A DNA stretch of 59,059 nucleotides from Methanobacteriota archaeon. GTDB lineage: Archaea > Thermoplasmatota > Thermoplasmata > SG8-5. Below are positions 5,492 through 38,571 of the stretch, piece after piece. The translations under genes and the position numbers were made by a program. The notes beneath the pieces are model-generated. The model had not been told where the DNA came from and searched no databases. It worked only from the letters and a program-made list of their open reading frames with translations. Positions within the stretch are counted from its first letter, which is position 1; every line of letters starts with the position of its first letter. Location: positions 1 through 59,059 of the forward strand of contig VMTD01000041.1 in the NCBI GenBank assembly GCA_013791785.1, written 5' to 3'.

Positions 5492-5516
5492 CAAGAAAGT
5501 ATTTCAATGAGGTTTG

Positions 5517-5524
5517 CTTTATAC
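5517..5524 (+). promoter_or_regulatory. TATA box of the GTPase operon
   Basis: TTTATACC centred about 28 nt before ATG 5549. This makes the transcript leaderless and argues that the ORF-track start at 5507 is too far upstream. Confidence 0.6.
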
Positions 5525-5548
5525 CATCTGAAACAGTGTGGTTGGTTA

Positions 5549-6373
5549 ATGGACGTAAAACAGGTTAAAAGAAAAGTACTTCTTATCGGAGATGGGGCTG
5601 TGGGTAAGACCAGCCTTATAAGAAAATTCGTCACCGACAGGTTTGACGACAAGTACATCACCACAATAGGCGCAAAGATTACCAAAAAGGACCTCCGCTA
5701 CAAGGTCCAGGGCGGGGATATGCTTCTCACTCTGATGATATGGGACATACTTGGCCAGAAAGGCTACACCGGCGTCCAGGCTTCAAGTTACAGGGGCGCG
5801 GAGGGTGCCATGATTGTTTGCGATCTCACAAGAAAGGAGACATTGCAGAGCACCGTTGATTATTGGATACCGGAACTCAGGAAAGTTGTTGGCGAGATAC
5901 CAATGATCTTCGTGGGAAACAAGTGCGACCTTATTGATGCCAGGCAGATTTCCGAGGCCGAACTGGAGTCCACCGCAAAAAGTTTCGCCACTCAGAGCTA
6001 TGTTTCCAGCGCGAAAACCGGTGAAAATGTCGAAGCATTATTCTTGAAACTCGGTGAAGTTGTTCTCAATTATACCCCCGGCGGAAACAACAGGGCTTCC
6101 GAAACCGCACCCAGAACCATATCCAATCTGACGGATGTAACTGATATTATAATCCAGGAGTTCTGCGATTCCTTCGGGGACCAGGAGACCGCCATGGCCG
6201 CAATCAGGCAGCAATTTTCCCTCGCAGGAGTTGATGTGAAGAATCCCCAGAAAGCCCCATTGCTGAAGGCCGTCGAGCGCCTTGCAGAGGTGGAGAAAGG
6301 CTTCAAGGATGATTTCTCGGTGAAGAGCAGCCTCTCAAAACGAAAGCGCCTGATAGAGCAGCACGGCGGGTGA
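5549..6373 (+). CDS. Rab/Ras-like small GTPase with C-terminal extension (GTPase 1)
   Basis: About 274 aa from the ATG at 5549. All five G motifs are present: P-loop GDGAVGKTS, switch I Thr in YITTIGAKIT, WDILGQ (with the Ras Q61-type Gln), NKCD and SAKTG. After the G domain (about residue 175) comes a roughly 90-aa extension (NLTDVTDIIIQEFCDSFG... to AEVEKGFKDDF) that recurs in GTPase 3, so it is a shared domain. No C-terminal Cys for prenylation. Four nt separate its stop from GTPase 2. Probably a GTP/GDP switch in signalling or membrane-associated processes; no direct evidence for the process. Confidence 0.9.
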   Translation: MDVKQVKRKVLLIGDGAVGKTSLIRKFVTDRFDDKYITTIGAKITKKDLRYKVQGGDMLLTLMIWDILGQKGYTGVQASSYRGAEGAMIVCDLTRKETLQSTVDYWIPELRKVVGEIPMIFVGNKCDLIDARQISEAELESTAKSFATQSYVSSAKTGENVEALFLKLGEVVLNYTPGGNNRASETAPRTISNLTDVTDIIIQEFCDSFGDQETAMAAIRQQFSLAGVDVKNPQKAPLLKAVERLAEVEKGFKDDFSVKSSLSKRKRLIEQHGG

Positions 6374-6377
6374 TGGC

Positions 6378-6929
6378 ATGGCCAAAAAACTCATGAAAAA
6401 GATATGCCTGCTCGGCGACGGAGCGGTGGGTAAAACTTCGCTTATCCGCAAATTCGTTTTTGACAGTTTCGATGACAAGTACATCATGACCTTCGGGACC
6501 AAGGTCTCCAAAAAGGAGGTCAGCATCTGCAGGAACGGTCAGGAATTCAACATGACATTCCTCATATGGGACATACTCGGCCAGCGGGTCCATGACAATG
6601 TGCATTCCGCGTATTACCAGGGCGCGGCAGGTGCCTTCATAGTCTGCGATACCACACGGCTGGAAACACTCCAGCACCTGGAGGACTGGATCAAGGTTTT
6701 CAGAACAGTGAACAACGATGCGCCGGTGGTTCTGCTGGGTAACAAATTTGACCTTGTCAGCGAGATGCAGTTCGGAGATAAGGAGCTAGGCGAGGTTGCC
6801 GGCAGGTACAACATGAAATATCACCTGACAAGCGCCAAGACCGGGGACCATGTTGAAGATTCGTTCATCGAGCTGGGGAACGAGGTAATAGACAGGCATC
6901 TGAACAAGGGAGTGAAATGCAATGAATGA
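6378..6929 (+). CDS. Rab/Ras-like small GTPase (GTPase 2)
   Basis: 183 aa, a bare G domain: P-loop GDGAVGKTS at about residues 12-20, WDILGQ, NKFD, SAKTG. It is close to GTPase 1 over the whole G domain (FDDKY, KVSKKE) but lacks its C-terminal extension. It ends in KGVKCNE, not a CaaX box. The stop overlaps the next gene by 8 nt, so it is translated between GTPase 1 and the V4R-DUF835 protein. Two dissimilar GTPases in one operon may act in series or as a heterodimer; this is inference. Confidence 0.9.
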   Translation: MAKKLMKKICLLGDGAVGKTSLIRKFVFDSFDDKYIMTFGTKVSKKEVSICRNGQEFNMTFLIWDILGQRVHDNVHSAYYQGAAGAFIVCDTTRLETLQHLEDWIKVFRTVNNDAPVVLLGNKFDLVSEMQFGDKELGEVAGRYNMKYHLTSAKTGDHVEDSFIELGNEVIDRHLNKGVKCNE

Positions 6930-22312: not shown

Positions 22313-23641
22313 ATGGGATTCCTTGATAAATTTGGGTATTTCATTTCCCGAAAGGGCACCATAAAAGCATGGTACGGAGTAGTGATTATCTTCTTCCTGG
22401 TAATGATCATAGTTCCGACGCTGTTCGTCCTGAGTTACGCGATAACTGGCTGGGACGATATCCAGGGAGATATTTTCACAGTACCAGCGGAGTCCACGCC
22501 CCAGCATATAGAACTGGTTTGCGTGAACAGGACATTGGTGTTTGACACATATGACATAATTGATATCACCGAAACCACATGGCTGGAACTGGACCTCCCA
22601 GATACAGCGGTCCAAGTCAATTACACAATCTTTGAGACGCTGGACGACGGCAGCGTCAAATCATATTATTCGGTAGGGCATTATTTCGATGTGCCAGATA
22701 CTTATGTTATACTTATTCACTCCAACGAAACCCACAATGAAATTACCCACGTCGGCCCGGTAATGCAGAATATAACACTGCGCGATGTCGACGGCACATA
22801 CCTGGATTCCTGGGAGGGCGAACTTTACCTCAGGGCCGGGAACGCGAAACCCATGGACCTCATCTGGGACGCCATGAAGATATCCTTCATCATCGCCACA
22901 ATCGTGACAATAATTGATTTCATTGCCGGTCTTCCGATGGCCTGGCTGATGGTCAGGAAGGACTTCAGGGGCAAGAAATACCTCGATATTCTCATCGATA
23001 TGCCGCTGGCCATTCCCACGGCGGCGTTAGGTTTCTCCACCGCACTGTTCTGGGCCGTAACCCCGAAAATCCCCGGTGCGGGATTGGGCATGACCGCCAT
23101 CCATGTAACGCACGACCAGGAAGAGGCGCTGACCATCTCGGACAGGATTATCATGCTGAAAGAGGGGAAAATCATACAGAAAGGCACGCCTCACGAGATG
23201 TTCAACCGGCCGGCCAGTCCGTTCATCCACCATTTTATCGGAGAGGCAAATTTCATTAGGGGAACTGTTACAGCCAGGCAAGGCAATTCATGCAGTGTCA
23301 CCACAGAAAGAGCCGGTGTGTTCAGCGCCGTGGGGACGGACCTCAAGGTGGGAACCAAGGTTGTCGCCGGAATAAAGACGGAATTTACCATACTGGAGAA
23401 GGAGGCAAAGGGCCATGAGAACCAGTTCTCAGGAATAGTGGACAGAAAGCTGTTCCTGGGCAGATTCACGGATTTCGAAGTCATCGTGGAGGACGGAAGG
23501 ATAATCCATGCCAGACTGCCAAGCTCCCTGGCCCATAAATTCCAGGAAGGTAGCAAGGTGCATGTGCATTACAACCCCGGGCGTCTGCTGGTGTTCCCTG
23601 AACCCGAAAGAGGACTGAAGGCCGAACTGGAGATGATGTGA
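22313..23641 (+). pseudogene. Permease N-half fused to ABC-ATPase C-half (deletion fusion)
   Basis: 442 aa, one open frame made of two broken halves. Residues 1 to about 257 are an ABC permease with an N-terminal helix, a long extracytoplasmic loop (about 50-170) and the start of the membrane domain (KISFIIATIVTIIDFIAGLPMAW, PTAALGFSTALFWAVTPKIPGAGLG). It then switches directly to TAIHVTHDQEEALTISD, the post-Walker-B H-loop of an ATPase, followed by a regulatory TOBE-type domain. Walker A, signature, Walker B and the EAA loop are missing, so neither half should work. Frame is kept across the junction. The cause is a real deletion or an assembly collapse. Confidence 0.8.
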
Positions 23642-31552: not shown

Positions 31553-32404
31553 ATGCCGATTGAGAGAATAAAAAAGAACATAATCATGCTCGGAGACGGG
31601 GCCGTTGGAAAGACCAGCCTTATCAAAAGATTCGTTCTTGACCAGTTCGACGACAAGTACATCACCACCATCGGAACCAAGGTCACCAAGAAGGAACTTT
31701 TTGTTGGGGATGACACGAACGGAGCCAAGATGGCACTACTGATATGGGATATACTCGGTCAGAAGGGTTACAGGTACACACAGGCCTTGTCCTTCGGCGG
31801 AATAGAGGGGGCCATACTCGTAACCGACATCACTAGACCGGAAACACTCGAGAGCATCAAGGAATACTGGATACCGTCATTGATAGGTGTCGCAGGACCT
31901 GTACCGATGGTTATCCTGGGAAACAAGACCGACCTTGTTGATGACAGAAGAATTGACGTCACCGACCTCGAGAAATTGAATGATGAGCCCGGTATGGACG
32001 GCATCATTCAGGGCTGCTACCTTTCAAGCGCCAGGACCGGGGAGTCAGTGGAGGAGGCGTTCTACGCCCTTGCCGATAATATGAGGTACGCGAACACAAT
32101 TGCCAAGGAGAATACCACCCAGTACTTCGTTGACAGGAACGAGATTCACAACCTGATGGATGTGGTGGACCACATAGTTGCGGATTTCAGCAACCAGTTC
32201 GGCGGTCTCGAGAATGCCACACCGACAATCAGATACCAGATGGAGAAAGCGGGTCTGGTATTGGATAATCCGACCTACAAGTCCGTCATCGAGTTCATTA
32301 ATGGCCTGGCCAACGTAGAATCCAGCTTCAGAACGCCCGAACAGATACGCATGAACCGTTCGAGACGATTGTACATGGCCAACAATCTTCCCACAAGAAA
32401 ATAA
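31553..32404 (+). CDS. Rab/Ras-like small GTPase with C-terminal extension (GTPase 3)
   Basis: 283 aa. P-loop GDGAVGKTSLIKRF at residues 14-27, TTIGTKVTKKE, WDILGQKGY, GNKTD, SARTG. The extension from about residue 190 (HNLMDVVDHIVADFSNQFGG ... INGLANVESSF) aligns with that of GTPase 1 (IDDVTD-type start, F.QFG, LAxVExxF). The two are paralogues 24 kb apart. GGTGG lies 9 nt before the ATG. It converges with the large membrane protein gene. Probably the switch of a signalling or membrane-organising system shared with GTPases 1 and 2. Confidence 0.9.
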   Translation: MPIERIKKNIIMLGDGAVGKTSLIKRFVLDQFDDKYITTIGTKVTKKELFVGDDTNGAKMALLIWDILGQKGYRYTQALSFGGIEGAILVTDITRPETLESIKEYWIPSLIGVAGPVPMVILGNKTDLVDDRRIDVTDLEKLNDEPGMDGIIQGCYLSSARTGESVEEAFYALADNMRYANTIAKENTTQYFVDRNEIHNLMDVVDHIVADFSNQFGGLENATPTIRYQMEKAGLVLDNPTYKSVIEFINGLANVESSFRTPEQIRMNRSRRLYMANNLPTRK

Positions 32405-32482
32405 TGCTTACCTTCCGAAGGCTGGAAACATGCGAACGGTTTAAAAATAACTGGCACAGAATGTTTTTCTTTATTCCGACAG

Positions 32483-35400
32483 CTATTCGTTCGGTTTCGC
32501 TTCCGTTTGCCACTGGGCTATAAGGTCGTCAAGCAATGGTCCGATATCATCCAACTTGCTCATACGGCCGTCCCAGGATTCCAGATTCGGGTGTTCGTCT
32601 TCAATCTTCGCAGTCAGCCCCAGTACCCGGGCCTGTAACTTCCTGTTCATCGATCCCGAATATATCAGGGCCAGGTTGATATTGTTACCCCTTTCCAGAA
32701 GCAGCTCCCTCTCCCCGAACTCCAGCTTCTTGACCCTCTCCCTCTTTCCGCTTGACAGGGAATCGCTCACGAACTGCTGGATCGCCGTGAGCATGGCCCC
32801 CACAAGGTCGCCGTCCAGGTCTGATTCCTTCTCACCACCGAATTTTTTGTGGGATATGAGCCGTCCATCCTTGTAAAGCACGAACACATCGTCGATGGAT
32901 GGGGGTATAGGTTTCAGGAAGTACCACAGTCCCAGTACCGCGAAGAACGAAACAATTCCGATTGCCAGTCCGGACCAGGGCCAGTATATATTTTCCCAGA
33001 AGGTGTATATCCGGTTTATGGTGAGGGAAAGGCCGTTGGATTCGACCGGCGATACTTGGCCGTCCACCGGGTCTGTTACCTGCATGTTGACATGGAAAAC
33101 GTCAGTCTGGAATGTGGCCGTACTCATCTTGAGGGCTCTCAGCGTCACCGTGAACGAATGCTGTCCCGGACCAACATTGGAAGTTTCCCAATAACATTTA
33201 TTCGAAACAACCAGGCATTCCTCGCTGCTTGACATATATTCCAGCCCGCCCGGTATGGTAAGATTGAACTTGATGCTGCTTGCCGTGCCGAATCCGGTAT
33301 TGTTGAAATGAACCGTCAGGACCACCATTTCATTTGAATTGGCAGCTGCAATCTGTGACACAAAATCCAGATAGAACATTGTCCTGAGCGATACGCCAAG
33401 CAGAGCAGTATTGGTCTCCCCGCTAATCACATAACCCGAAACATCCGCATAATCTATCGACCATTCCAGAGCAACGATTGAACCCTGAACAACATTATGA
33501 TTCAGTGTGGCACTGAATTCCAGTATTTGACTTGAATTTCCCTGAACGTTCTCGATGTAATATGCCACGGTTTCGCCCGTGAGCCTGTCATCAGAAGTTC
33601 CGTTAAGCCATACGTGTCGGGCCATGCCCCTGCCTGTGTTATTGACCCACAGTCTGAAGGTTACCCTATCGCCCACGTCCGCGGTTGCATTCAAGCAACG
33701 CAGAACGGCAGATATCACCGGGCCATTCACTCTCAGCGAGGCCGTGCTGAGAAGCGATTCCACACGGTTCTCCAGGGGGTCCAGATATTCCAGCGTCACG
33801 GTTGTCTGAAGGTTATCCCCATCCACGGAGCCGGATTTGACAGTGGCATCTATCCATATCATGTTCTGACCGGGAGGTATCTGAGTGAACACATAACGGC
33901 GAATTCCGGGATTGGAATCGGTGATATAGCTGTTGAAAATGGCAAGTGTGTTTGAGTTGTTGCCGACATATTCCAGGCGGTCATCGAGATATACGTTCAG
34001 CCATGCCGTTGCCGAACGGCTCTGGGCGGTGCTATTGAAATTAACATAGAGTCGAACGGTCTCTCCGGCTTCCGCACCGGCCACACCCCATACAGGTTCC
34101 AGTGTGAATTCCGGTTCTGCTGAAACATAACTGAGTTTTATCCATTTTACCGAGGGAGTCACCACGGAATCCGTAGTGATCAAAATTCCCATGATACGAA
34201 TGCTGTTTTCCGGATTTATGGACCTGATATCCCCATCTAGAGGCATTTCCGTCCAATTTGCACCAGAATTCGTGGAATAATGATATGCGATTTTTTGGCC
34301 ATTATGTTCAACCTCGTGAGTGAAGAATCCAAAGCTCGTGAAATTTCCCAGTGCATAATCCATGGTCTGGAATGACCCTGAAAGATGATATTTGTTATAG
34401 ATGATGTTCACCGAATTAAGAACTGGCGTGAGATTTGTCTCCGCAGTGCTGAATTCAGCTTTGTACTGGATATACCGGCCAATGGGCCTGTCGATATCTG
34501 AACCGGATGGGTCAGTGAGCGCTGTGGACCAGTCTGACCAGATACTGTCTGTGGGCACGGAAGAATTCCCGGTTCTCACAAAAAGTTCTATATCCGTGCC
34601 TGCCGGCAAATTCTCGCTCCAGGAAATATTGTTCCACATTGCATAAGAACCTGTATCATGGACCTGGGAAGTGAAATTGCCCTCCGTGCGATAGGCATCA
34701 TACAGTAACGAGGCATTGTCCCAGGAATTATTAACCCCATCTTTACCGCCAGTTTGCTTGTTTGTGACATTTGATTCCACAAAGGTGGTGATGGAAATAT
34801 TATATATTCCTGTCGAATTGAAAAAGCTAGTGTCTTCAGTCCATAGTGCTACCCAATCAGAGTCCGTTTCATTTATCCATTTTCGTTCTATGACTGTGTT
34901 TATTTCTCCGCATGGATTGGTGAGAACAATACTGGCAATGGTCCCATTATTTATCTCGTAGGTTTCGTTATTCAATACAAACCTGTGAATTGCAGATAAA
35001 TTAGTGCTTTTGGGTATTGTAGGTAAAAAGAAGCTCTGGTTGATCCAAGCAGTGCCATTTGCCGGAGCGAAGTCCACCGGATCCACAAACATCAGTTCCC
35101 ACCAATAATTGGTATCGCTCCGTTCTGGAGTCCATGATCCGAGTCCAATATATTCCGATTCATAACTCCAGTTATCTGCCGCGCCTCCGGTTGACGGACT
35201 TGAAAAATCCCCATTGACCAATGCCTGGATGTCTTCATCCAGAAAGAGCTGCACATCGCCAATCGGGGAAAAATAAACACTGCTCACTTCGGTAGCATTG
35301 TTGAAATCCTGAAATGAATCCTGGCGCCAGTTGGATTCATACACTGAGAGATTGGCATATCCCGACATAATTGAAATATTATCCGTTAAATAATCCGATT

Positions 35401-35554
35401 GATTGGAAAAATCCCAGGTAATTATTCTGGTTCCGTCTGGCTGGGGGTTATCCACGGGATCTGACTCGACCATTGGCACTGTACCAATGATGAACAATAG
35501 CATGAATATGGCCGTTATCCTGTTCAGACGGGCTGTGTTCCGCTCCCACTTCAT
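32483..35554 (-). CDS. Large single-pass surface protein with a longin/roadblock-like cytoplasmic tail
   Basis: 1023 aa. Signal peptide at residues 1-31, then a long ectodomain with many N-x-S/T sites and beta-sandwich (DUF11/CARDB-like) modules, e.g. GEYVxNN-type strands and VLTVHFNNTGFGTASSIKFNLTIPGG near 760. One membrane helix lies at about 858-880 (GLAIGIVSFFAVLGLWYFL). The tail of about 140 aa (IDDVFVLYKDGRLISHK ... AMLTAIQQFVSDSL ... LEFGERELLLERGNNINLALIYSG ... LESWDGRM) looks like a longin/roadblock-type sensor domain. Such domains bind small GTPases, and a Rab-like GTPase gene converges on this gene. Ectodomain ligand unknown. Confidence 0.7.
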   Translation of the reverse strand: MKWERNTARLNRITAIFMLLFIIGTVPMVESDPVDNPQPDGTRIITWDFSNQSDYLTDNISIMSGYANLSVYESNWRQDSFQDFNNATEVSSVYFSPIGDVQLFLDEDIQALVNGDFSSPSTGGAADNWSYESEYIGLGSWTPERSDTNYWWELMFVDPVDFAPANGTAWINQSFFLPTIPKSTNLSAIHRFVLNNETYEINNGTIASIVLTNPCGEINTVIERKWINETDSDWVALWTEDTSFFNSTGIYNISITTFVESNVTNKQTGGKDGVNNSWDNASLLYDAYRTEGNFTSQVHDTGSYAMWNNISWSENLPAGTDIELFVRTGNSSVPTDSIWSDWSTALTDPSGSDIDRPIGRYIQYKAEFSTAETNLTPVLNSVNIIYNKYHLSGSFQTMDYALGNFTSFGFFTHEVEHNGQKIAYHYSTNSGANWTEMPLDGDIRSINPENSIRIMGILITTDSVVTPSVKWIKLSYVSAEPEFTLEPVWGVAGAEAGETVRLYVNFNSTAQSRSATAWLNVYLDDRLEYVGNNSNTLAIFNSYITDSNPGIRRYVFTQIPPGQNMIWIDATVKSGSVDGDNLQTTVTLEYLDPLENRVESLLSTASLRVNGPVISAVLRCLNATADVGDRVTFRLWVNNTGRGMARHVWLNGTSDDRLTGETVAYYIENVQGNSSQILEFSATLNHNVVQGSIVALEWSIDYADVSGYVISGETNTALLGVSLRTMFYLDFVSQIAAANSNEMVVLTVHFNNTGFGTASSIKFNLTIPGGLEYMSSSEECLVVSNKCYWETSNVGPGQHSFTVTLRALKMSTATFQTDVFHVNMQVTDPVDGQVSPVESNGLSLTINRIYTFWENIYWPWSGLAIGIVSFFAVLGLWYFLKPIPPSIDDVFVLYKDGRLISHKKFGGEKESDLDGDLVGAMLTAIQQFVSDSLSSGKRERVKKLEFGERELLLERGNNINLALIYSGSMNRKLQARVLGLTAKIEDEHPNLESWDGRMSKLDDIGPLLDDLIAQWQTEAKPNE

Positions 35555-35772
35555 TGCTATTCCTAATAAATCATGTTTATAAAAAACCGATGTATGATTT
35601 CACTGATTTTGCGCCTAGTTTGGGTTTATCATTTTATTTATACATAAAAAAATATCGCAATGTATTTATATCATAATACCAAAAGCTTTTTAATGGTTGA
35701 AAATAATATATGTATGTGTTAAAATATATGAAATAGCGGCTACTATTGTATTTTAACGAAAGAGGGCACAAA

Positions 35773-38571
35773 ATGATTAATAATGCGAATCCTGGCCACA
35801 ATTTGCTGGTCATCAGCATGATGTGTATAGTCCTGACCATGCCTTTTAACTTCGTTGTCCCCGCAGGGGCAAATCACGAGATCAGCATCACACAAAATAA
35901 CCAGTTGGAAGAAGAATTTTTAAGTCCCTCCCATCCAGCACCTTTAATAGGCAATTCACCGCAGGTTATCTGGCAACAGTTCAACTCTCCAAACCAATCT
36001 GGCCTGTATGGCTGTGTTAAGTTCTATGATTTTGACCATGACGGCATTCAAGATATGGTGGCAGGTAATTTTGCAGGAGGAATTTCCATGTGGACAGGCG
36101 ACGGTCTCGGTAATTGGACCATGTTTTCCCCACCCATTACCAGCATGAATTTCTATGATTTTGCATTAGGGGACATTAACAATGATGGCTTATCTGATAT
36201 TGTTGCCGGATATGACAAAGGAATGCTTGCCTGGACCGGAGATGGTTCCGGAACCTGGACAAATGTAACGGTCGGGCTACCCAATGAATATGTTGGCCCG
36301 CTATTCCCCATATATTCCGTGGTTCTTGATGACATGAATCTTGATGGCAACCTGGATATTGTCGGAGGAAACAACGGCAAATCCGGGGCACAGTCGATTC
36401 AGGCAGTTAGGGTGTTCATGGGTAATGGAAATGGAGTTTGGACCGATGCAAGCAGCAACCTCCCTGCAGTGAATGGTCTCAAATATTTTGGAATTGCAAC
36501 TGGTGATTTTAACAGAGATGGATGGCCGGACATTGTAGGAGCCGGGTCCGCAGGTATTGATGCCTGGATAGGTAACGGAGGAAGTACATGGACCCTCAGG
36601 GACAATGGGTTGCCTGGCTCCGGTGCCTATTCCGATGTGAAACTTGCCGATTTCAACCTTGACGGAAATTTCGATCTTGTTGCCACCGGAAAAAACAACA
36701 ATGGACTTGCGGTTTCGAACGGGGACGGGTGGGGCATCTGGACTACAACATACACCTTGCCTATGACCGGCACATACACGGGTGTTGAGGTATATGATGT
36801 GAATATTGACGGTTACATGGACATCATAACCTCCAGCGATGATTCCGATAATATTATCTGGACCGGCGACGGTCAAAACAACTGGTATCTTCAGACCAAT
36901 GGCCTTAGAACCGGCGACTCGCATTCGGACATTTCGGTTGGGGACATAAACAATGATGCCAGAATGGACATATGTCTTCCGAATACCACCGGAGAGCAGA
37001 ATATCTGGTATTCATCGGTTGACAGAACAGTGAATGCCTGGACCGAACTGAACGCGCCGGCTTCCGGCGGCCAGATAAATGACATTGAGATTGCCGATAT
37101 AAACATGGACGGAAAGCCCGACATCTGCTATGCAAAGGAAGGCGGCGGAATCGAACTGTGGAGCGGGGACGGAACAGGCAACTGGACACCCATGACAAAA
37201 CCGGTATCGACAGGCAATTACAATTCAATAATTTCGACAGATTTCAACAAGGACGGCAAGCCAGACATTATTTCCACCTCGGATTCGGGAATAAAGGTAT
37301 GGATTGGCAACGGTGGAACGACCTGGGTCGCCAGAACCATGGGCCTTCCTTCATCGGGTGTTTACCTGGGCCTGACCGTTGCGGATTTCAATGATGACGG
37401 AGACCCGGACATCGCCGCTGGAACGCAGGCCTCCGGAGTTGCAGTGTGGAACGGGGACGGTTGGGGAATCTGGACAATGACTTACAACCTGCCTTTCGTC
37501 GGCACATACTACGACCTTGCGGCAAGGGACATGAACAGGGACGGGGCCCTGGACCTTGTAGCAGCACATGGCGGCCTCATGGTTTTCCTGGGCAATGCAA
37601 ATGACGGCTGGAGTCAGTCTTCATCCGGTCTGCCTGGTAGCTCTTCACAGTATTACTCGGTGGAGGTTACAGACCTTGACAATGATGGAATATTGGATAT
37701 TATTGGAGCCTCGGAATCTGCAGGAGTGAACACATGGCTCGGTGACGGGACCGGAAGCTGGAACTTCGGCTCCAACCCCACTTCCGTAGCAACCACCGGC
37801 CTGGCAACAGGCGATTTCAGCATTGACGGAACCCCGGATATCGTGTTCGGATCAGGCACCAATAACGGAATAAACGGTCTTGCACGGAAACAGCCAGCGT
37901 GGGAAACTGTCTCGGATGGACTGTTCCAATCCGGTGATTTCAGGACCATTGAACTGGCAGATATCAACATTGACGGCAGACTTGACATAATAACTGCAAA
38001 TTACACTGCCGGAACGCCCAATATCTGGGTGGGTGATTACGCCGTACCGCCGCCGGAAACCTTCAGCATCGGCCCGCTTTCCGTGGGTTGGAACCTGGTA
38101 TCAACGCCCCTTGCACCGTCCGACACGGCACTTCCCGGCGCCCTCACAGACTTGGACGGCGACACTTCCTGGACAAGGGTGAAATATTACGACAATGCGG
38201 CTTCACCTGCTTGGAAGACATACGGCCCCAGCATTACTTCGACGCTCACGGACATCACCGAAAAAATGGGTGTCTGGATATACATACCGGATGCCGGTTC
38301 CCTGGGTGACGGTTATATCAGGCTGGAAGGCAGCGCCCCGACAGCCACAACAATTGACCTGGTACCAGGCTGGAACCTAGTGGGCTACCCATCGTCCATC
38401 TCAAGAACCGCCGGCACCACTGTCCCACCCCAGGTGGACATTATGTCGGTCTATCAGTCCGCGTCCCCTTACATACAGGACTTCACAGCCTACTCGGGCG
38501 TCAGCATGATTCCCGGTAACGCATACTGGATTCATGTGAATTCAGCCAGCACGTGGGTTGTTGATTATTAA
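35773..38571 (+). CDS. Secreted FG-GAP/VCBS repeat protein with tandem GWNLV domains
   Basis: 932 aa from ATG 35773. Signal peptide to about residue 33 (ISMMCIVLTMPFNFVVPAGA). It then has roughly 15-18 FG-GAP blades of the form D.N.DG..D (FDHDGIQDMVAG, DINNDGLSDIVAG, DFNRDGWPDIVG, DLDNDGILDIIG), which form beta-propellers and bind Ca2+. The C-terminal region has two GWNLVSTP / GWNLVGYP segments, a domain seen at the end of many archaeal surface proteins. AGAGGG lies 6 nt before the ATG, and TTAAAATATATG is the TATA box. The TTG at 35746 in the ORF track is rejected. Likely an adhesive or cell-surface protein; partner unknown. Confidence 0.9.
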   Translation: MINNANPGHNLLVISMMCIVLTMPFNFVVPAGANHEISITQNNQLEEEFLSPSHPAPLIGNSPQVIWQQFNSPNQSGLYGCVKFYDFDHDGIQDMVAGNFAGGISMWTGDGLGNWTMFSPPITSMNFYDFALGDINNDGLSDIVAGYDKGMLAWTGDGSGTWTNVTVGLPNEYVGPLFPIYSVVLDDMNLDGNLDIVGGNNGKSGAQSIQAVRVFMGNGNGVWTDASSNLPAVNGLKYFGIATGDFNRDGWPDIVGAGSAGIDAWIGNGGSTWTLRDNGLPGSGAYSDVKLADFNLDGNFDLVATGKNNNGLAVSNGDGWGIWTTTYTLPMTGTYTGVEVYDVNIDGYMDIITSSDDSDNIIWTGDGQNNWYLQTNGLRTGDSHSDISVGDINNDARMDICLPNTTGEQNIWYSSVDRTVNAWTELNAPASGGQINDIEIADINMDGKPDICYAKEGGGIELWSGDGTGNWTPMTKPVSTGNYNSIISTDFNKDGKPDIISTSDSGIKVWIGNGGTTWVARTMGLPSSGVYLGLTVADFNDDGDPDIAAGTQASGVAVWNGDGWGIWTMTYNLPFVGTYYDLAARDMNRDGALDLVAAHGGLMVFLGNANDGWSQSSSGLPGSSSQYYSVEVTDLDNDGILDIIGASESAGVNTWLGDGTGSWNFGSNPTSVATTGLATGDFSIDGTPDIVFGSGTNNGINGLARKQPAWETVSDGLFQSGDFRTIELADINIDGRLDIITANYTAGTPNIWVGDYAVPPPETFSIGPLSVGWNLVSTPLAPSDTALPGALTDLDGDTSWTRVKYYDNAASPAWKTYGPSITSTLTDITEKMGVWIYIPDAGSLGDGYIRLEGSAPTATTIDLVPGWNLVGYPSSISRTAGTTVPPQVDIMSVYQSASPYIQDFTAYSGVSMIPGNAYWIHVNSASTWVVDY

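Follow-up and report, generated by a model that had tools for sequence, protein, structure and literature searches.

A longin-like tail on Thermoplasmatota surface proteins as a candidate membrane platform for adjacent Rab-like GTPases

The DNA analyzed here (the window) is a stretch of 59,059 nucleotides from a Methanobacteriota archaeon of the Thermoplasmatota (GenBank assembly GCA_013791785.1, contig VMTD01000041.1; contig C49 in a draft genome of 2.6 Mb). It contains two convergent genes separated by a 78-bp gap (32405-32482): one for a Rab-like small GTPase with a C-terminal extension, called GTPase 3 (283 residues; 31553-32404, forward strand), and one for a large surface protein (1023 residues; 32483-35554, reverse strand) that ends in a predicted cytoplasmic domain of 139 residues, called the tail. 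We consider it probable, at about 0.65, that the tail is a membrane-fixed docking or regulatory platform for the adjacent GTPase, because the fold class to which it is assigned docks or regulates small GTPases, as in MglB, Ragulator and TRAPP (PMC4316618; PMC10933270). The reading draws on the modelled fold of the tail, on the predicted membrane topology, on the recognition of GTPase 3 as intact and Rab-like, and on the strong association of the two genes, both in genome content and in gene neighbourhood, across other genomes.

The surface protein has two hydrophobic segments, at about residues 10-31 and 859-883, with none similar between them. The first is a putative signal/anchor helix (35462-35527), preceded by a basic stretch (4 K/R and 1 D/E in residues 1-12), and the second contains a single transmembrane helix (residues 859-881; 32912-32980) that is conserved in orthologues. 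N-glycosylation sequons number 30 in the intervening residues 32-858 (32981-35461) and none in the tail (counted over 141 residues; the domain itself is residues 885-1023; 32486-32902); four relatives repeat the contrast, with 28-30 in the exported part and 0-1 in the tail. The contrast therefore supports the predicted topology, with the ectodomain outside and the tail inside, and the large ectodomain is probably glycosylated. Residues 737-829 (33068-33346) match DUF11 and B_ant_repeat models of Pfam and NCBIfam, and a search of the surface protein against PDB sequences gave no match, leaving the ectodomain with no solved counterpart. An earlier reading from sequence only had proposed a secreted ectodomain, one membrane helix and a tail of about 140 residues for this gene. 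Both hydropathy and sequon counts agree with that layout; the boundary shifts slightly, the domain proper beginning near residue 885.

The tail was annotated from alignments A1 and A3, from its AlphaFold2 model and from matches to the model and to its relatives. The model, built on an alignment of 79 sequences, has a predicted local distance difference test score (pLDDT) of 81.6 and a predicted template modelling score (pTM) of 0.78, and is reliable enough to work with. Its elements follow the order beta-beta-alpha-beta-beta-beta-alpha-alpha (strands at tail residues 4-12 and 17-22, a helix at 33-53, strands at 59-64, 67-73 and 77-84, and helices at 89-105 and 122-137). Foldseek matches the model to PDB chains of longin, adaptin-sigma, zeta-COP, LAMTOR/Ragulator, MglB and Asgard roadblock domains (E 2.5e-5 to 6e-4). 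The best template modelling (TM) score is with the longin domain of Sec22b (0.70 on the query, 0.76 on the target), and comparison with the Ykt6 longin gives 0.63/0.65. Longin domains differ from roadblock domains in two features of a published comparison: they have lost the helix at the N-terminus and gained one at the C-terminus (PMC10933270). In the model, the first element of the tail is a strand right after the membrane helix, so that the N-terminal helix of roadblock domains is absent, and an additional C-terminal helix is present. For these two reasons the tail, as modelled, is longin-like and not a classical roadblock domain. The suggestion made from the sequence, of a longin/roadblock-type tail, is supported; structure prediction, proposed there as a check, returned no unrelated fold, the PDB matches being to longin, roadblock and adaptin-sigma chains. 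Assignment of the predicted fold to the longin/roadblock group is supported. Among the 79 tail relatives, 14 match the Pfam model Robl_LC7 (best 2e-6) and three weakly match Fuz_longin_1, the first longin domain of FUZ/MON1/HPS1 (best 0.0021). One stand-alone relative encoded in the same genome clears the Robl_LC7 cut-off. A profile of the tail family found only chance-level matches among PDB sequences.

GTPase 3 scores 107 bits against Pfam Ras (cut-off 21.6). Its G domain (residues 1-180; 31553-32092) retains G1, G3, G4 and G5 as GDGAVGKTS (14-22), WDILGQ (65-70), NKTD (124-127) and SSA (158-160), and the motif residues are invariant across the 31 relatives of alignment A4, in which G3 has the form DxxG. 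The nearest solved sequence is a Thorarchaeota Rab (8e-23), followed by Rab21, with RhoA also found; the nearest solved chains are thus Rabs and not MglA, and nearly all of the top Foldseek matches of the GTPase 3 model are Rabs as well. Judged by its motifs, GTPase 3 is an intact GTPase of the Ras/Rab type, nearest to Rabs in sequence and predicted fold. Over its final 80 residues it is homologous to the end of GTPase 1 (5507-6373), as had been noticed earlier; most close relatives share this stretch, whereas GTPase 2 (6378-6929) lacks it. This extension (residues about 200-280; 32150-32392) is predicted to form a unit of four helices over residues 201-277. No prenylation cysteine of the eukaryotic Rab type was found at the C-terminus of GTPase 3 (RSRRLYMANNLPTRK). 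Archaeal Rab-like proteins lack this cysteine, and the survey reporting this judged their association with membranes unlikely (PMC4915359). A cysteine that could carry a lipid anchor is missing from the C-terminus of these GTPases, and docking on the tail would account for their access to the membrane.

A scan of 250 genomes of the class found both tail and GTPase in 128, the tail only in one, the GTPase only in seven and neither in 114. Proximity was assessed in the 26 genomes that have exactly one tail and one GTPase: the two lie within 5 kb in 12, against 0.14 expected. Nine of these 12 pairs are side by side by hit coordinates (confirmed from the open reading frames in G020, G142 and G165), and the other three, all of family f12, are about 3 kb apart. 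A GTPase gene lies no more than 500 bp from the tail gene at 28 of 80 named tail loci, where about one is expected. A sample of 39 genomes contains 64 tails, of which 31 have a GTPase no farther than 5 kb away, where chance would give 1.1, but nine of those genomes were chosen since adjacency was already visible, and the count from 26 genomes is the fairer one. At least three arrangements occur: the GTPase gene directly upstream of the tail gene on the same strand (f5, f11, f20 and others), convergent genes as in the window (f1, f3, f9, f15, f18, f20), and a two-helix tail protein of 200-232 residues whose gene immediately precedes that of the GTPase (f5, f20). The adjacent GTPases include forms with and without the C-terminal extension. 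Their tail partners vary in ectodomain, gene order and orientation, the tail being the main common part.

In the gene order of the window itself, the convergent pair is kept at six of six checkable orthologous loci. A whole orthologous GTPase gene adjoins the surface-protein orthologue in G002, G008 (C13), G011 and G012, and in G005 and G008 (C157), where the contig starts within the GTPase gene, its last 80 or so codons are at the same place. Genes for PhoU, an M50 protease and an FG-GAP protein are likewise conserved around several of these pairs, and we therefore regard the adjacency at orthologous loci as weak evidence and rejected it as independent proof of a functional link. Conservation of the whole block could by itself keep the two genes together in the absence of any such link. 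We consider this improbable because of the class-wide adjacency: the tail proteins of other families differ in ectodomain, neighbours and orientation, yet adjoin a GTPase far more often than chance allows. The class-wide adjacency is the stronger evidence. That the two genes should be neighbours elsewhere, as the sequence-only reading implied, is borne out both at the orthologous loci and across the class, where other arrangements bring them together well beyond chance expectation; only these latter cases carry weight.

The tail occurs at the C-terminus of many otherwise dissimilar large surface proteins and is often their sole common part (61 relatives searched); distant GTPase-partner proteins resemble the window protein in the tail and membrane helix only. 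At the 80 named loci it typically starts a few residues past a membrane helix. The genome to which the window belongs has 11 copies, at least one copy is present in 129 of the 250 genomes of the class, and the tail is also found in other classes of the phylum. It can follow several membrane helices or form a stand-alone protein of 174-190 residues, and a tail-type domain also lies beside AAA/TPR or DUF835/TPR regions. The last of these contexts, the many tail-bearing surface proteins with no GTPase gene nearby, and the standing of SNARE longins and adaptin sigma among the top fold matches by TM-score would fit a module that sorts, clusters or scaffolds surface proteins in the manner of SNAREs or adaptors, with no direct contact to a GTPase. 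This is nonetheless unlikely, given the near-perfect co-occurrence of the tail with one GTPase family and its recurrent adjacency to that family in several arrangements.

The docking or regulatory platform that we favour would work as follows. The surface protein would display its large, probably glycosylated ectodomain outside, and the single membrane helix would keep the longin/roadblock-like domain close to the membrane on its cytoplasmic side. By analogy with related folds, this domain would most likely bind the neighbouring Rab-like GTPase. It would thereby dock the GTPase at the membrane and offer a platform for its regulation, in the way that Ragulator does for Rags, MglB for MglA and the TRAPP/Mon1 longins for Rabs; it may perhaps also set the nucleotide state of the GTPase. 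The ectodomain may plausibly have a sensing or adhesive role. We infer direct binding of tail and GTPase, the role of the tail as anchor, guanine nucleotide exchange factor (GEF) or GTPase-activating protein (GAP), the formation of homo- or heterodimers, and any ectodomain signal. A stricter claim, overlapping the favoured one, is that the tail is itself a membrane-fixed GEF or GAP which switches the nucleotide state of the GTPase according to the state of the ectodomain, like a receptor and not a mere dock. Longin dimers of the Mon1/Ccz1 type are Rab GEFs, and three tail relatives weakly match the Fuz_longin_1 model. Longin dimers of the TRAPP type are likewise Rab GEFs, and roadblock dimers of MglB are GAPs (PMC10933270; PMC4316618). 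Set against these precedents, the fold class has no recognizable catalytic feature, the known cases require dimers, and many tails have no adjoining GTPase, so that we hold this stricter version to be rather unlikely.

Several observations weigh against the platform reading in general. The tail of the window, searched alone, matches no Pfam or NCBIfam model, Robl_LC7 and longin models included; because of this the tail family appears undescribed and, judged by these searches, has no name in either database. Alignment of the tail family with hhalign to three roadblock proteins encoded in this genome gives a probability of 2%, in a sensible register but against a target alignment too thin to decide the matter. 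The longin fold is also used in SNAREs and coat adaptors, where it does not regulate a GTPase. In the window's own gene order the adjacency falls within a longer stretch of conserved synteny, and the window's two genes, being convergent, do not form one transcript. About half of the one-copy genomes hold tail and GTPase apart, including seven of seven in family f21. In favour of the pairing, the distance matrices of tail and GTPase correlate with r 0.89 over 41 pairs, and with 0.68-0.96 inside each arrangement, but shared ancestry inflates such mirror-tree figures and the co-occurrence figures too; the variety of gene arrangements is independent of this inflation.

The system resembles several known ones, and differs from each of them. 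As with MglA and MglB of bacteria and some archaea, the gene for a Ras-like small GTPase adjoins one for a protein of roadblock/longin fold, and Foldseek places MglB chains among the matches to the tail model. MglB, however, is soluble and passes the Robl_LC7 model, whereas the domain described here is the longin-like tail of a membrane protein, and the G3 motif of its Rab-like GTPase contains Asp. In a 2014 survey, none of 121 GTPases of the non-MglA (Rup) family, the second of the two prokaryotic families, was coupled to an MglB homologue (PMC4316618). Ragulator likewise offers a platform of roadblock fold that holds small GTPases, the Rags, at a membrane, that of the lysosome, and LAMTOR chains are among the top fold matches. 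Ragulator is a multi-subunit complex, lipid-anchored through LAMTOR1; here, in contrast, fold, membrane helix and large ectodomain are in a single polypeptide. Longins of the Sec22b/Ykt6 and TRAPP/Mon1 types share the element order of the tail and include its best TM-score, and the weak Fuz_longin_1 matches of its relatives belong here. In SNAREs the longin lies N-terminal to the SNARE motif and to any membrane helix, whereas the tail is C-terminal and follows the membrane helix. Asgard archaea have the same kinds of protein, roadblock, longin and Rab-like, and supply the nearest solved chain to GTPase 3. In Asgards such domains have been described as proteins of their own or as fusions to GTPases, with the genes of GTPases and regulators generally outside operons (PMC10933270). 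Natural fusions of GTPase and tail were sought here among unusually long GTPase frames and none was found, the candidates being rejected as stop-to-stop extensions, several of which overlap a separate tail gene. In the actinobacterial conservon, finally, a membrane protein is also linked to a small GTPase regulated by a roadblock protein, but there the membrane protein is a histidine kinase (CvnA), with the roadblock (CvnB) and GTPase (CvnD) separate (PMC4316618); here there is no kinase, and the longin-like domain and the membrane protein are one polypeptide.

Further observations concern neighbouring genes and other members of the family. The FG-GAP gene beside the pair (35746-38571, forward strand) encodes a secreted beta-propeller protein (229 bits with PF13517); it keeps this position in orthologous loci, and its product is possibly an extracellular partner of the pair. 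Just past this gene, two relatives have extra Rab-like GTPase genes (L036:14351-15873 and L040:6447-11007) that the window lacks, which suggests that such genes are gained and lost locally. Four large proteins of the same genome (L155, L158, L160 and L161) have a tail-type domain near the N-terminus; L155, the one scanned, also has an AAA_16 ATPase and TPR regions, resembling signalling ATPases of the STAND type. Rows of several membrane-helix-plus-tail genes lie by GTPase genes at L174:3428-8471 (G092:C53) and L176:3-5685 (G073:C2), a hint of multi-subunit tail complexes. Elsewhere in the window, an open reading frame at 22313-23641 (forward strand) resembles an ABC permease at its start and the C-terminal portion of an ABC ATPase at its end, which may reflect an internal deletion or an assembly artefact.

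The survey that defined GTPase-roadblock pairs gathered regulators by similarity to MglB/Robl_LC7, and the pairing known from it is that with MglA (PMC4316618). It would probably have missed tails of the window's type because the tail itself lacks the Robl_LC7 match on which selection was based. Our literature search, in which subscription papers were incompletely covered, found no report of a membrane-anchored version of the GTPase-roadblock pair in Thermoplasmatota. More broadly, and tentatively, at somewhat short of even odds, Thermoplasmatota may possess an entire class of surface receptors with one membrane helix, each ending in a cytoplasmic longin-type domain dedicated to its cognate Rab-like GTPase and together forming a non-Asgard switch system, outside-in or inside-out, in which a built-in anchor replaces prenylation. 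In Asgards, gene order has been of little use for matching GTPases to their regulators (PMC10933270); in the present class it yields testable pairs of cognate GTPase and partner. A domain family unnamed in Pfam and NCBIfam now has a likely fold and partner, and a partner with its own membrane helix, in a phylum outside the Asgards, bears on the pre-eukaryotic origin of membrane control by small GTPases.

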